This document shows positions 101-35,324 of a stretch of 64,000 nucleotides of DNA, piece after piece. A program made the translations under genes and the position numbers. The stretch covers positions 1 through 64,000 of the forward strand of contig NZ_KN050786.1 of assembly GCF_000745955.1 (NCBI RefSeq), read 5' to 3'. Source of the DNA: Alysiella crassa DSM 2578. GTDB lineage: Bacteria > Pseudomonadota > Gammaproteobacteria > Burkholderiales > Neisseriaceae. A model generated the notes under the pieces. The model worked only from the letters and a program-made list of their open reading frames with translations, was not told where the DNA came from and made no database searches. Numbering within the stretch: the first letter of the stretch is position 1; each line of letters begins with the position of its first letter.

Positions 101-142
101 AGGCAGCCTGAAAGATTTTTGTCGTGTACTGAAAGGCTGCCT
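101..142. repeat. Short element remnant between two uptake sequences
   Basis: AGGCAGCCTGAA is followed by AGATTTTTGTCGTGTACTGAA and then AGGCTGCCT. The GTCGTGTACTGAA part is the terminal inverted repeat of the larger elements near 18.8, 27.4, 33.6 and 35.0 kb, but the internal hairpin is missing. The same short layout recurs near 23.9 and 24.76 kb, so it is a recurring internally deleted or solo-end form. Confidence 0.55.
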
Positions 143-8827: not shown

Positions 8828-8906
8828 AACATACTTTAATGATTATTAACAGATATTTTTCAGGCTGCTTGAAGTTGGAAAAAACCTTTTCAGGCAGCCT
8901 GAACCC

Positions 8907-18042: not shown

Positions 18043-18609
18043 TTATTTTTTAATCACGGTAACGCTTGAGCCTGCGATATTTTGTTTCAGGCGAATGCGA
18101 ATTGGGTCGTGGCGATGGTCGTCCAGCCAGCGATAATCGCGTCTGCCGATTTTAAAATGACGCATAAGCAATTGTTCGTTTGGGCTTTTCACTTGCCAAT
18201 AATAATGGTAGGTGATGAAGCGGAATTCGTCTAATTGGGCGACACGCGTTTCCACATATTGATTGGGTGCGCCGCGAATTAAAAACACTGTCAGCAAACA
18301 CAAAAAACTGCTAATGCTGATAAAACAACAGATTAAATGCAGCAATTTTTCCACAAAATACGACAATTGCCATGGCAAACCCATTTTGTGAAACGAGGGT
18401 AAATAGCTGCCTGAATCCACTTGGGTAAACGCAAATAAGCTAACCAATGGCGAAAGCACCCAAAACACGCGCTCAAAATCTAAAGACATCACATAGCTTG
18501 TAGATGAGCCGTGTACCCAGAAAAAATAATTGAAAATTAATGGGATAGTAGAAAATGCCCACAGCATTTCTTTTTTGTTTTTTCGTAAGAATCTAAAAAA
18601 ATAATACAT
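18043..18609 (-). CDS. Hypothetical membrane protein
   Basis: A 188-residue protein with a basic N-terminus (FRFLRKNKKE) and three or so hydrophobic segments, at about 16-34, 48-62 and 84-112, then a polar C-terminal part of about 75 residues rich in Arg, His and Tyr. No family recognised and no neighbour gives a clue. It lies divergent from cysE with a mobile-element-like repeat between them. Confidence 0.6.
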   Translation of the reverse strand: MYYFFRFLRKNKKEMLWAFSTIPLIFNYFFWVHGSSTSYVMSLDFERVFWVLSPLVSLFAFTQVDSGSYLPSFHKMGLPWQLSYFVEKLLHLICCFISISSFLCLLTVFLIRGAPNQYVETRVAQLDEFRFITYHYYWQVKSPNEQLLMRHFKIGRRDYRWLDDHRHDPIRIRLKQNIAGSSVTVIKK

Positions 18610-18913
18610 ATAAAATTTAAGTATAAGGTGTCAATAATGTTGATAAAATCAAAAAGTTATGGTGCAACAGCTCAACTTTTTGTGGCTAAAGTGAAGATTA
18701 CCGCAGTTTGTAAACCTGTGTCAAATCGTGTATAAACGGTTTTATTTTATTGATTGTTTCAGTACACGACAAAAATAACTGTAGGGTGTGCCGTTCGCAC
18801 CAAAACCCACCACAATATTTAAATTATTCAGTAATTTGGTGCGCATGGCGCACCCTACAGTTATTTTTGTCGTGTACTGAAATTGATTGTGAAAAGTAAA
18901 GTGGTGAAATAAG
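18610..18913. other. Intergenic region before cysE
   Basis: About 300 bases without a gene. The right half is the 124-bp inverted-repeat element described next; the left half is AT-rich and presumably holds the divergent promoters, but no clear -35/-10 pair was found. Confidence 0.6.
18758..18881. mobile_element. Inverted-repeat element (MITE-like), cleanest copy, with 9-bp target duplication
   Basis: A 124-bp element with about 30-bp perfect terminal inverted repeats beginning TTCAGTACACGAC and containing GTAGGGTG at the inner end. It is flanked on both sides by the perfect 9-base direct repeat ATTGATTGT (18749-18757 and 18882-18890), which is not an uptake sequence. No reading frame inside. 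This copy defines the ends and the duplication length for the family. Confidence 0.85.
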
Positions 18914-19720
18914 ATGGATTTGAATTTATGGCAACAAATTCGTGTGGAAGCAGCACAATCTGCTAGTGAAGAACCAACTTTGGCTAGTTTCTTGCATTTA
19001 ACGGTGTTGCGGCACAAATCATTGGCAAGTGTGTTGGCGTTTCATTTATCCAGCAAATTGTCCAATAGTGTGATGGACGCACGCAGCCTGAATGAGTTGT
19101 TTTTGGAAGCCTTAACGGACGATGAGCAAATTGTGGCGGCGGTGGAAGCGGATATTTGTGCGTATTATCAACGCGACCCTGCGTGTGATTTGTATTGTTT
19201 GCCTTTGTTGTATTTTAAGGGTTTTCATGCGATTCAGGCGCATCGGATTAATCATTGGCTGTGGAATCATGGGCGCAAAACGGTGGCGTATTTCTTACAA
19301 AATCGGGTTTCGGAAGTGTTTGGGGTGGACATTCACCCTGCGGCGCGGTTTGGGCATGGGATTATGATTGACCACGGCACGGGGGTGGTGGTGGGCGAAA
19401 CGGCGGTGTTGGGCAATGATATTTCTATTTTGCATGGGGTTACGCTGGGCGGCTCGGGCAAGGAAAGTGGCGACCGCCACCCGAAAATTGGCGATGGGGT
19501 GATGATTGGGGCGAATGCGTCTATTTTGGGCAATATTCGGGTGGGCGAATGCGCGAAAGTGGGCGCAGGCAGCGTGGTGGTGCGCCACGTTGAGCCGCAC
19601 ACAACGGTGGTGGGTGTACCTGCGAAAGCGGTGGGCGGCGTGTCGTCTTGTAAACCTGCTGATGAGATGAATCAGAATTTTGTGGACGATGGCTCGTTGT
19701 ATATTGGGGCAGGGATTTAG
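18914..19720 (+). CDS. cysE: Serine O-acetyltransferase
   Basis: A 268-residue CysE making O-acetylserine for cysteine synthesis. An alpha-helical N-terminal domain is followed by left-handed beta-helix hexapeptide repeats with GVDIHPAARFGHGIMIDHGTGVVVGETA; the His and Asp of IDHGTG are catalytic. HGVTLGG and GAGSVVVRHVEPHTTVVGVPAK complete the fold. Start ATG is 23 bases after the flanking repeat of the inserted element, so its promoter may involve that element. Confidence 0.96.
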   Translation: MDLNLWQQIRVEAAQSASEEPTLASFLHLTVLRHKSLASVLAFHLSSKLSNSVMDARSLNELFLEALTDDEQIVAAVEADICAYYQRDPACDLYCLPLLYFKGFHAIQAHRINHWLWNHGRKTVAYFLQNRVSEVFGVDIHPAARFGHGIMIDHGTGVVVGETAVLGNDISILHGVTLGGSGKESGDRHPKIGDGVMIGANASILGNIRVGECAKVGAGSVVVRHVEPHTTVVGVPAKAVGGVSSCKPADEMNQNFVDDGSLYIGAGI

Positions 19721-19759: not shown

Positions 19760-19881
19760 TTCAGTACACGACAATTTTTACCAACACCCAAAATGTAGGG
19801 TGCGTACCATGCACCAAATCATTTAAATAATTGACATTTCGGTGCGTAATACGCACCCTACATTAAATTTGCCACATATTT
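19760..19881. mobile_element. Inverted-repeat element, copy with decayed right end
   Basis: The left end TTCAGTACACGAC follows AGGCTGCCT, and the inner hairpin GTAGGGTGCG/CGCACCCTAC is intact. The right terminal repeat has drifted beyond recognition before AGGCAGCCTGAA. The two flanking 9-mers differ only at the centre base. It lies between cysE and birA-coaX. Confidence 0.7.
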
Positions 19882-27364: not shown

Positions 27365-27489
27365 TTTAGTACACGAAAAAACTTATGTAGGGTGCATATT
27401 ACGCACCAAAATTTCAAGTTATTTGAATGATTTGGTGCGTGGTACACACCCTACATTTTAGGTGTGGGTAAAAATGATTGTGTACTGAA
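27365..27489. mobile_element. Inverted-repeat element inside an uptake sequence
   Basis: A 125-bp copy with ends TTTAGTACACGA and TGTGTACTGAA and inner GTAGGGTGCAT/CACACCCTAC. It is flanked by the direct 9-base repeat AGGCTGCCT (27356-27364, 27490-27498), both with T at the centre, so outer sequence plus one repeat restores TTCAGGCTGCCTGAA. Confidence 0.8.
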
Positions 27490-33218: not shown

Positions 33219-33659
33219 AGAGATTTCCTTTGTTTTTAATGAGTTAAATTTAAATAATACAATCATGGTGTCATGAGAATTGACCGCTTATTATAAAACA
33301 ATCTGGCATGAATTTAAACATCAGCATAATATAAAAATAAATAATGAAATGCGTGATAATTTAGACCATGATTTTATGTTTTATTTAAATTCAGTTGCTT
33401 AAATTTATGTGTGTTAAATTGGGTTAATGATTGTATGCAGATTCATTAGTCAAGCTAATGAATAAATATGGGAATGGTTTGAGGGGATTTTTTGCAGGCT
33501 GCCTTTCAGTACACGAGAATTTTGATAAACACTAAAAGTAGGGTGCGCCGTGCGCACCAAATGGCTTGAATAATTGAAATATGATGGCGAATTTGGTGCG
33601 CACGGCGCACCCTACTGTGATTTTTATTGTGTACTGAAAGGCTGCCTGAAAAATAAAGA
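33219..33659. other. Intergenic region between the orphan binding protein and the aminotransferase
   Basis: About 440 bases. The first part is AT-rich and should hold the promoter of the binding-protein gene; no clear promoter hexamers were picked out. The right part is a 134-bp inverted-repeat element. No gene seen. Confidence 0.6.
33505..33638. mobile_element. Inverted-repeat element inside an uptake sequence
   Basis: A 134-bp copy, ends TTCAGTACACGAG and TGTGTACTGAA, inner GTAGGGTGCGCCGTGCGCACC with its counterpart GGTGCGCACGGCGCACCCTAC. It is flanked by the direct repeat AGGCTGCCT (33496-33504 and 33639-33647), T at the centre on both sides. Confidence 0.82.
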
Positions 33660-34963: not shown

Positions 34964-35098
34964 TTCAGTACACGACAAAAATAACAGTAGGGTGCGCCGT
35001 GCGCACCAAATTCACCACAATATTTAAATTATTCAGTTATTTGGTGCGCAGGGCGCACCCTACATGATTTGTGATTGGCAAAATTGTCGTGTACTGAA
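34964..35098. mobile_element. Inverted-repeat element inside an uptake sequence (A-centred)
   Basis: A 135-bp copy, ends TTCAGTACACGAC and GTCGTGTACTGAA, inner GTAGGGTGCGCC/GGCGCACCCTAC. The flanking direct repeat is AGGCAGCCT on both sides (34955-34963, 35099-35107). Here the centre base is A on both sides, where other copies have T on both. Confidence 0.82.
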
Positions 35099-35219: not shown

Positions 35220-35324
35220 AACAATTCACGAAAATGTAGGGTGTGTCGTTCGCACCAAATAGCTGAATAATTTAAACATTGTGGCGAATTTGGTGCGTAC
35301 TGTTATTTTTGTCGTGTATTGTTA
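35220..35324. mobile_element. Decayed inverted-repeat element
   Basis: A shorter, worn copy: AACAATTCACGAAAATGTAGGG on the left, GTCGTGTATTGTTA on the right, the inner right arm largely lost. Flanks are AGGCAGCCT and AGGCATCCT, eight of nine bases the same. Confidence 0.65.

Follow-up and report, generated by a model that had tools for sequence, protein, structure and literature searches.

Short inverted-repeat elements of Alysiella crassa lie mainly in DNA uptake-sequence dyads and are probably mobilised by an ISAba1-like transposase

Insertion sequences (IS) aimed at genomic palindromes are already known. According to the available text of PMC1525189, IS1397, IS621 and the IS4-family ISRm22 insert in REP palindromes, and the elements described below resemble them in that they too land in a palindrome abundant in the genome. 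For ISAba1, a 9-bp duplication is reported in the accessible part of PMC3498117. Correia elements, from the same bacterial family as Alysiella, are likewise short, gene-less inverted-repeat elements, of 100-155 bp (PMC3898611, available sections). The palindrome concerned here is familiar in another role: Simonsiella, Alysiella and Kingella have dyads of the same overlapping pair of uptake sequences, simDUS and kingDUS, with 1294 occurrences in Simonsiella muelleri. The portions of PMC3630211 and PMC7371117 that report this treat dyads purely as uptake sequences.

We analysed a 64,000-nucleotide stretch of the Alysiella crassa DSM 2578 genome (the window), in which an inverted-repeat element lies near a cysE-like gene. 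The explanation we favour, with a probability of about 0.86, is that this focal element, a MITE, depends for its movement on an ISAba1-like transposase of the IS4 family that the same genome encodes and that acts in trans. The transposase would bind shared ends of about 15 bp, cut the target with a 9-bp stagger and strongly prefer TTCAGGCWGCCTGAA, a palindrome of 15 bp in which two uptake sequences overlap as a dyad. Insertion would duplicate the dyad’s 9-bp core, AGGCWGCCT, so that the element comes to lie between two complete 12-bp uptake sequences, both facing outward, where there had been one dyad. The focal copy would be a rare off-target insertion.

The focal element and its family

The original prediction described a 124-bp inverted-repeat element with a perfect 9-bp duplication, and this is what the sequence between the two ATTGATTGT copies reads directly (18758-18881; Table 1). 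The outer sequences of the element are TTCAGTACACGAC...GTCGTGTACTGAA. Its terminal repeats, predicted to be perfect over some 30 bp, are without mismatch for the outer 31 bp, and 44 of the 48 outermost positions agree; the repeat search gave arms of 48 nt at 94%. Only about 15 bp of these form the end shared by the family. The chance of a 9/9 flank match is an estimated ~4e-6 per site, and the predicted fold of the element strand has an energy of -81 kcal/mol (z -13.5 against shuffles). The element carries no gene, as had been claimed: the sole ORF of at least 60 aa across it is a mechanical minus-strand ORF of 91 aa (18742-19017). It is short and gene-less, has terminal inverted repeats and a target duplication, and is multicopy with an IS sharing its ends, which are the features of a MITE. 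Rfam gave no match above gathering score in the whole window.

The predicted position just upstream of cysE is right, with 32 bp between the end of the element and the start of the cysE-like ORF. In the focal region the promoter scan near cysE gave chance-level results and the terminator scan found no terminator-like site. These results speak neither for nor against the suggested effect of the element on cysE. The flank was also correctly described as unrelated to uptake sequences, a useful point because most sister copies sit inside them. Its context, TTT-ATTGATTGT-GAA, still has the TT...AA found at the outer positions of the preferred target. The suggested empty site, a single ATTGATTGT upstream of cysE, was found in none of 22 relatives, where by eye the flanks have no counterpart.

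Table 1. Features of the focal region and further family copies in the window
Feature	Position	Strand	Basis or remark
Focal non-autonomous element (MITE), 124 bp	18758..18881	.	IS4-family IS-like ends; interior is GTAGGGTGYGC hairpin core
Target-site duplication ATTGATTGT, left copy	18749..18757	+	Sequence read
Target-site duplication ATTGATTGT, right copy	18882..18890	+	Followed by GAA, as in uptake-sequence target
Family terminal repeat TTCAGTACACGACAA, left	18758..18772	+	Shared-end comparison
Family terminal repeat, right	18867..18881	-	Shared-end comparison
cysE-like ORF	18914..19720	+	Same-family relatives at 61-82% identity
Minus-strand ORF on other side of focal element	18043-18609	-	ORF list
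Sister copy in uptake-sequence dyad, AGGCTGCCT both sides	27365..27489	.	Empty site in G004, same two flanking genes
Sister copy, AGGCTGCCT both sides; TGC in place of TTC at outer left	33505..33638	.	Sequence read
Sister copy in dyad, AGGCAGCCT both sides	34964..35098	.	Sequence read
Sister copy, only left end intact, right end lost	19760..19880 (approximate extent)	.	Sequence read
Degraded sister copy	35232..35321	.	DNA search and sequence read
Right end near contig start, then AGGCTGCCTGAA; no left end in window	121..133	-	End scan

The focal end belongs to a large family. With at most one mismatch allowed, TTCAGTACACGAC matches the 2.76-Mb genome at 302 places and its reversed-pattern control at 4, and a DNA search with the whole element gave at least 84 matches, many places being counted on both strands (40 of 401 candidates scored). 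The copies compared have about 15 bp in common at each end and differ in their interiors. One core type is a GTAGGG...CCCTAC hairpin (most copies 112-136 bp), a second is of the CTGTCCCC type (about 106-345 bp), and a third, the GTAGGTCGGGC hairpin, occurs in this genome in one 73-bp copy (C12:35838-35910). The GTAGGTCGGGC core is also present in the congener G001 (L152 and L159) and in G004, which represents another genus of the same family (L165), so that three unlike cores go with one kind of end.

Long arms like those of the focal copy occur in only three of 60 own-genome copies, C64:226-348 (48/48), the focal element (44/48) and C8:34162-34273 (44/48), the rest matching at 25/48 or fewer. 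The 30-bp repeat is therefore not the recognition end of the family; the focal arms are long because the same arm is present at both ends. Perhaps the arms of these three copies were homogenised by hairpin-templated repair.

Several copies have further peculiarities. The copy at C1:75669-75921 (L052) has an interior insert that starts ATAGTGGATTCAATTTAAA and ends TTTAAATTGAATTCACTAT, with similar sequence beside a G004 copy (L180); the insert resembles a Correia element. The right flank is AGGCTGAAACCTTTG or close to it, rather than AGGCWGCCTGAA, at C19:4217, at L159 in G001 and at L180 in G004, possibly another repeat recombined with the element end. Within the nested copy at C1:117517-117811 a G tract comes after a long run of C, which may reflect either an error of assembly or a hypermutable sequence.

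Insertion sites and their duplication

Most copies of the family have the arrangement TTC-AGGCWGCCT-element-AGGCWGCCT-GAA; AGGCAGCCTGAA is kingDUS and AGGCTGCCTGAA is simDUS. Among 99 element pairs from three genomes, scored with at most one mismatch to AGGCWGCCT, the core was on both sides in 78 and on one side in 16; four had a non-uptake duplication (three 9/9, one 8/9) and one had neither. One left end was kept automatically per right end, and the pairs counted had at most 4 end mismatches, spanned 40-420 bp and did not lie too close to the end of a sequence. The own-genome set comprised 513,661 bases and 20 stretches; G001 and G004 contributed 20 stretches apiece, and all three sets had partly been selected for their copies. 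Two identical contig-end copies, C92:159 and C59:14394, are possibly a single locus counted twice. Genome-wide, AGGCWGCCT followed by an end was found at 258 sites (at most one mismatch over 22 bases; controls 0), all ends numbering 302. The outer TTC was present in 60 of the 61 pairs with exact cores, as was the outer GAA, whereas outside elements dyads account for 265 of the 558 uptake sequences. The target is therefore the 15-bp dyad and not the single tag.

We estimated the strength of the bias in 431,309 bases (contigs C1, C2 and C3 whole, with 15 kb of C4), which hold 265 intact dyads and 30 retained element pairs. The uptake core flanked 28 of the 30, on both sides in 23 and on one side in 5, a bias of ~1,374-fold over random expectation, with 28 of 293 dyads occupied (9.6%, about 10%). 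The C4 stretch was selected for copies and contributes 2 of the 28. For this count seven of 67 pairings were removed by hand as mis-pairings or as using one end twice (starts 75669, 22864, 3749, 37361, 45793, 106501 and 117414), leaving 60; 75669 and the outer copy at 117414 are real elements, and with 75669 kept the count is 28 of 31.

Such a bias could in principle arise from untargeted insertion followed by survival of the copies that preserve uptake sequences, and insertion into a dyad, which retains two full uptake sequences, should indeed be well tolerated. Survivorship should, however, also leave many copies at neutral intergenic sites elsewhere, and instead 28 of the 30 pairs share a single exact register within dyads, which cover ~0.07% of positions. 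The non-uptake sites also speak against untargeted insertion. All four such duplications, the focal one included, have TT and AA at the outer positions, a pattern (TT-N11-AA) with a background of 1.2%, or 2.7% in AT-rich stretches. This regularity was noticed after the fact; since all four keep it, it suggests that the outer part of the target contributes to recognition. We regard survivorship as an improbable explanation and targeted insertion as the better one.

Targeted insertion into dyads fits with the unoccupied sites. Opposite the window copy at 27365-27489, the corresponding pair of genes in G004 encloses a single dyad, TTCAGGCAGCCTGAA, and two G004 copies face single dyads in our genome, at C2:41976 and at window position 8889, the G004 copy opposite the latter having a degraded right flank. 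A third candidate pair, L179 of G004 with C1:61670, was too rearranged to count. Of the four relatives compared at the 27365 copy, the others have the same neighbour without a dyad (G009), a different neighbour (G001) or a contig end (G017). For the copies at 33505 and 34964 no empty site was found: G001 lacks a dyad at the matching place, none was seen in G009, and in G017, which does have uptake sequences, no site could be aligned. In our genome, two more copies whose 12-bp ends are perfect lie between unrelated perfect 9-bp repeats, AGCGTTGGT and GTTTCAAAT. The first of these, at C1:117517, is a nested insertion with 17 uninterrupted paralogous counterparts, differing at 2-6 positions over 36 bases. 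The predicted insertion by a transposase that makes 9-bp duplications is thus supported by three perfect unrelated duplications, a nested insertion and orthologous empty sites for sister copies.

The flanks at dyads need separate consideration. They resemble an inverted repeat, and they could be read as the element’s own, the true element then being TTCAGGCWGCCTTTCAG...CTGAAAGGCWGCCTGAA without any 9-bp duplication at such copies. The core is palindromic except at its centre base, so the two readings can be told apart: a duplication predicts identical centre bases on the two sides, and an inverted flank complementary ones. In the 61 exact-core pairs of the three genomes the centres were A/A in 23, T/T in 22, T/A in 15 and A/T in 1. 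The 16 complementary pairs (15 T...A, 1 A...T) would suit inverted flanks, which require complementarity throughout; the 45 identical pairs, of which none is expected on that reading, do not (Fisher p 8e-6). Perfect-ended copies outside uptake sequences, moreover, stop exactly at TTCAG/CTGAA, and the empty sites hold a single dyad. That the flanks belong to the element is hence very hard to sustain. Because the centre base is identical in 45 of 61 pairs, the uptake-core flanks are a target duplication.

Pairs with differing centres look older on average, because their ends are more decayed (mean 2.0 versus 0.93 mismatches, one-sided p 0.01). Age alone need not be the reason, since the 12-bp ends are perfect in four of the 16; copies may also have recombined with one another, or selection may have been strong. 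The direction of the difference is one-sided (T/A 15, A/T 1; p 5e-4). A T/A pair reads outward as AGGCAGCCTGAA from either flank, and among single uptake sequences outside elements this form is likewise the more frequent (224 versus 69). From this 15:1 direction toward the commoner tag we infer continued uptake selection on both flanks after insertion.

The probable partner insertion sequence and the distribution of the family

Many contigs of the assembly break within a longer element that has the same ends as the MITEs. A 107-aa C-terminal transposase fragment has 35 matches in this genome, and in each of the 30 cases examined it is no more than 21 bases away from where the contig stops or starts. 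The right ends of this IS are followed by AGGCWGCCTGAA in 28 of 30 cases (the exceptions are one AGGCTGGCTGAA and one ACAATAAATGAA), and TTCAGGCWGCCT precedes the available left ends in 11 of 11. The fragment matches Pfam PF01609 (DDE_Tnp_1) above the cut-off, and its best NCBIfam model is IS4, at 77.7 bits for the 107 aa compared against a full-length cut-off of 152. IS4-family transposases carry the signature motif Y-(2)-R-(3)-E-(6)-K, which YRQRWQIEMLFSCLK in the fragment fits by eye. Among 897 matching plasmid records, the top-ranked annotated ones of the matches listed are ISAba1 copies, with 53.8% identity over 77 residues, and one further record matches at 60-80% identity. The ends of one ISAba1-family copy are CTCTGTACACGACAAA, and GTACACGACAAA is common to these and to the ends of the partner IS.

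The partner transposase that had been predicted elsewhere in the genome therefore has a good candidate in an ISAba1-like IS4-family IS with the same ends, though the PF01609 search found no complete gene in the assembly, the central part being missing. The 20 last-numbered, shortest contigs contained neither a full-length transposase nor family ends at one mismatch or fewer. Duplications of 9 bp are found at MITEs that carry the ends of this IS. Its transposase probably mobilises them in trans and would be the cause of the target bias. Further PF01609 matches outside the 35 (C95:81-248, C40:21754, C37:79, C55, C65, C66, C4:77353 and C83:912-1304), several near contig ends, are probably other DDE insertion sequences.

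The least credible alternative is that no transposition is involved and that static repeats, such as terminator or RNA hairpins, were carried from one uptake sequence to another by recombination or transformation: the strong hairpin and the lack of a complete transposase in the assembly would suit it, but it accounts neither for perfect 9-bp duplications at unrelated sites, the nested copy and precise empty sites, nor for ends common to MITEs and an IS, and the focal region is without a terminator-like site.

The family has a narrow distribution. In 61 genomes (our own and 60 relatives) the ends exceeded the control level only in our own genome, G001 (85 ends) and G004 (68). The uptake core joined to an end matched in three of 83 family genomes, our own included (276, 67 and 41 sites; controls 0). 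This uptake-sequence usage would fit the Alysiella/Simonsiella group, as the available text of PMC10715097 describes it. Within the 61 genomes the transposase fragment was found only in our own and in G017 (44%, with a stop). As its C-terminus has no match in G001 or G004, though both carry MITEs, another transposase may have worked there.

Possible consequences and comparison with known systems

The flanking tags presumably function as uptake sequences in this host, as they are known to do in relatives. A tentative extension, which we think somewhat less probable than its opposite, is that the family lands on the tag by which cells recognise self-DNA and, in making one dyad into two outward tags that bracket it, is preferentially imported by transformation and spread among cells and species sharing the dialect, with both tags staying under uptake selection. 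That selection is supported by the 15 of 16 differing-centre pairs that read outward as AGGCAGCCTGAA. Flanking tags would then benefit the element, and transformation would be a means of its spread.

Uptake sequences are usually viewed as a filter that excludes foreign DNA, and here a mobile element appears to target the tag. Insertion doubles the tag rather than destroying it, so new copies could be marked for transfer by their flanks. As a case of a transposon that takes advantage of natural competence this is concrete and can be tested and, with family members in two genera, it offers a possible route between genera. The centre base provides a sequence record of how uptake sequences evolve after duplication.

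In the literature searched, which did not extend to subscription papers and preprints, we found no IS or MITE described as directed at DNA uptake sequences. None is described in the available text of PMC3898611, PMC7371117, PMC3049150 and PMC3630211, and the available text of the last contains neither ‘transpos’ nor ‘insertion sequence’.

The closest known relatives differ from the Alysiella family in several ways. Correia elements have a TA duplication and 26-bp repeats, in contrast to a 9-bp duplication and shared ends of about 15 bp with a different sequence. We therefore rejected the focal element as a Correia element: its duplication is of 9 bp, not TA, and its ends, TTCAGTACACGAC, differ from the Correia terminal repeat. 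Likeness to the ISAba1 group lies in the transposase fragment and in the GTACACGACAAA common to the ends; a 9-bp duplication was not seen at the ISAba1-family copy with ends CTCTGTACACGACAAA. The ISAba1 target given in the accessible part of PMC3498117 is ATAATTTTA, whereas the Alysiella family targets the uptake-sequence dyad, and abundant MITE derivatives are a feature of this family, unlike the ISAba1 group. The IS that insert in REP palindromes differ in their target: here the palindrome is that of the DNA uptake sequence, which insertion leaves complete on either side of the element.
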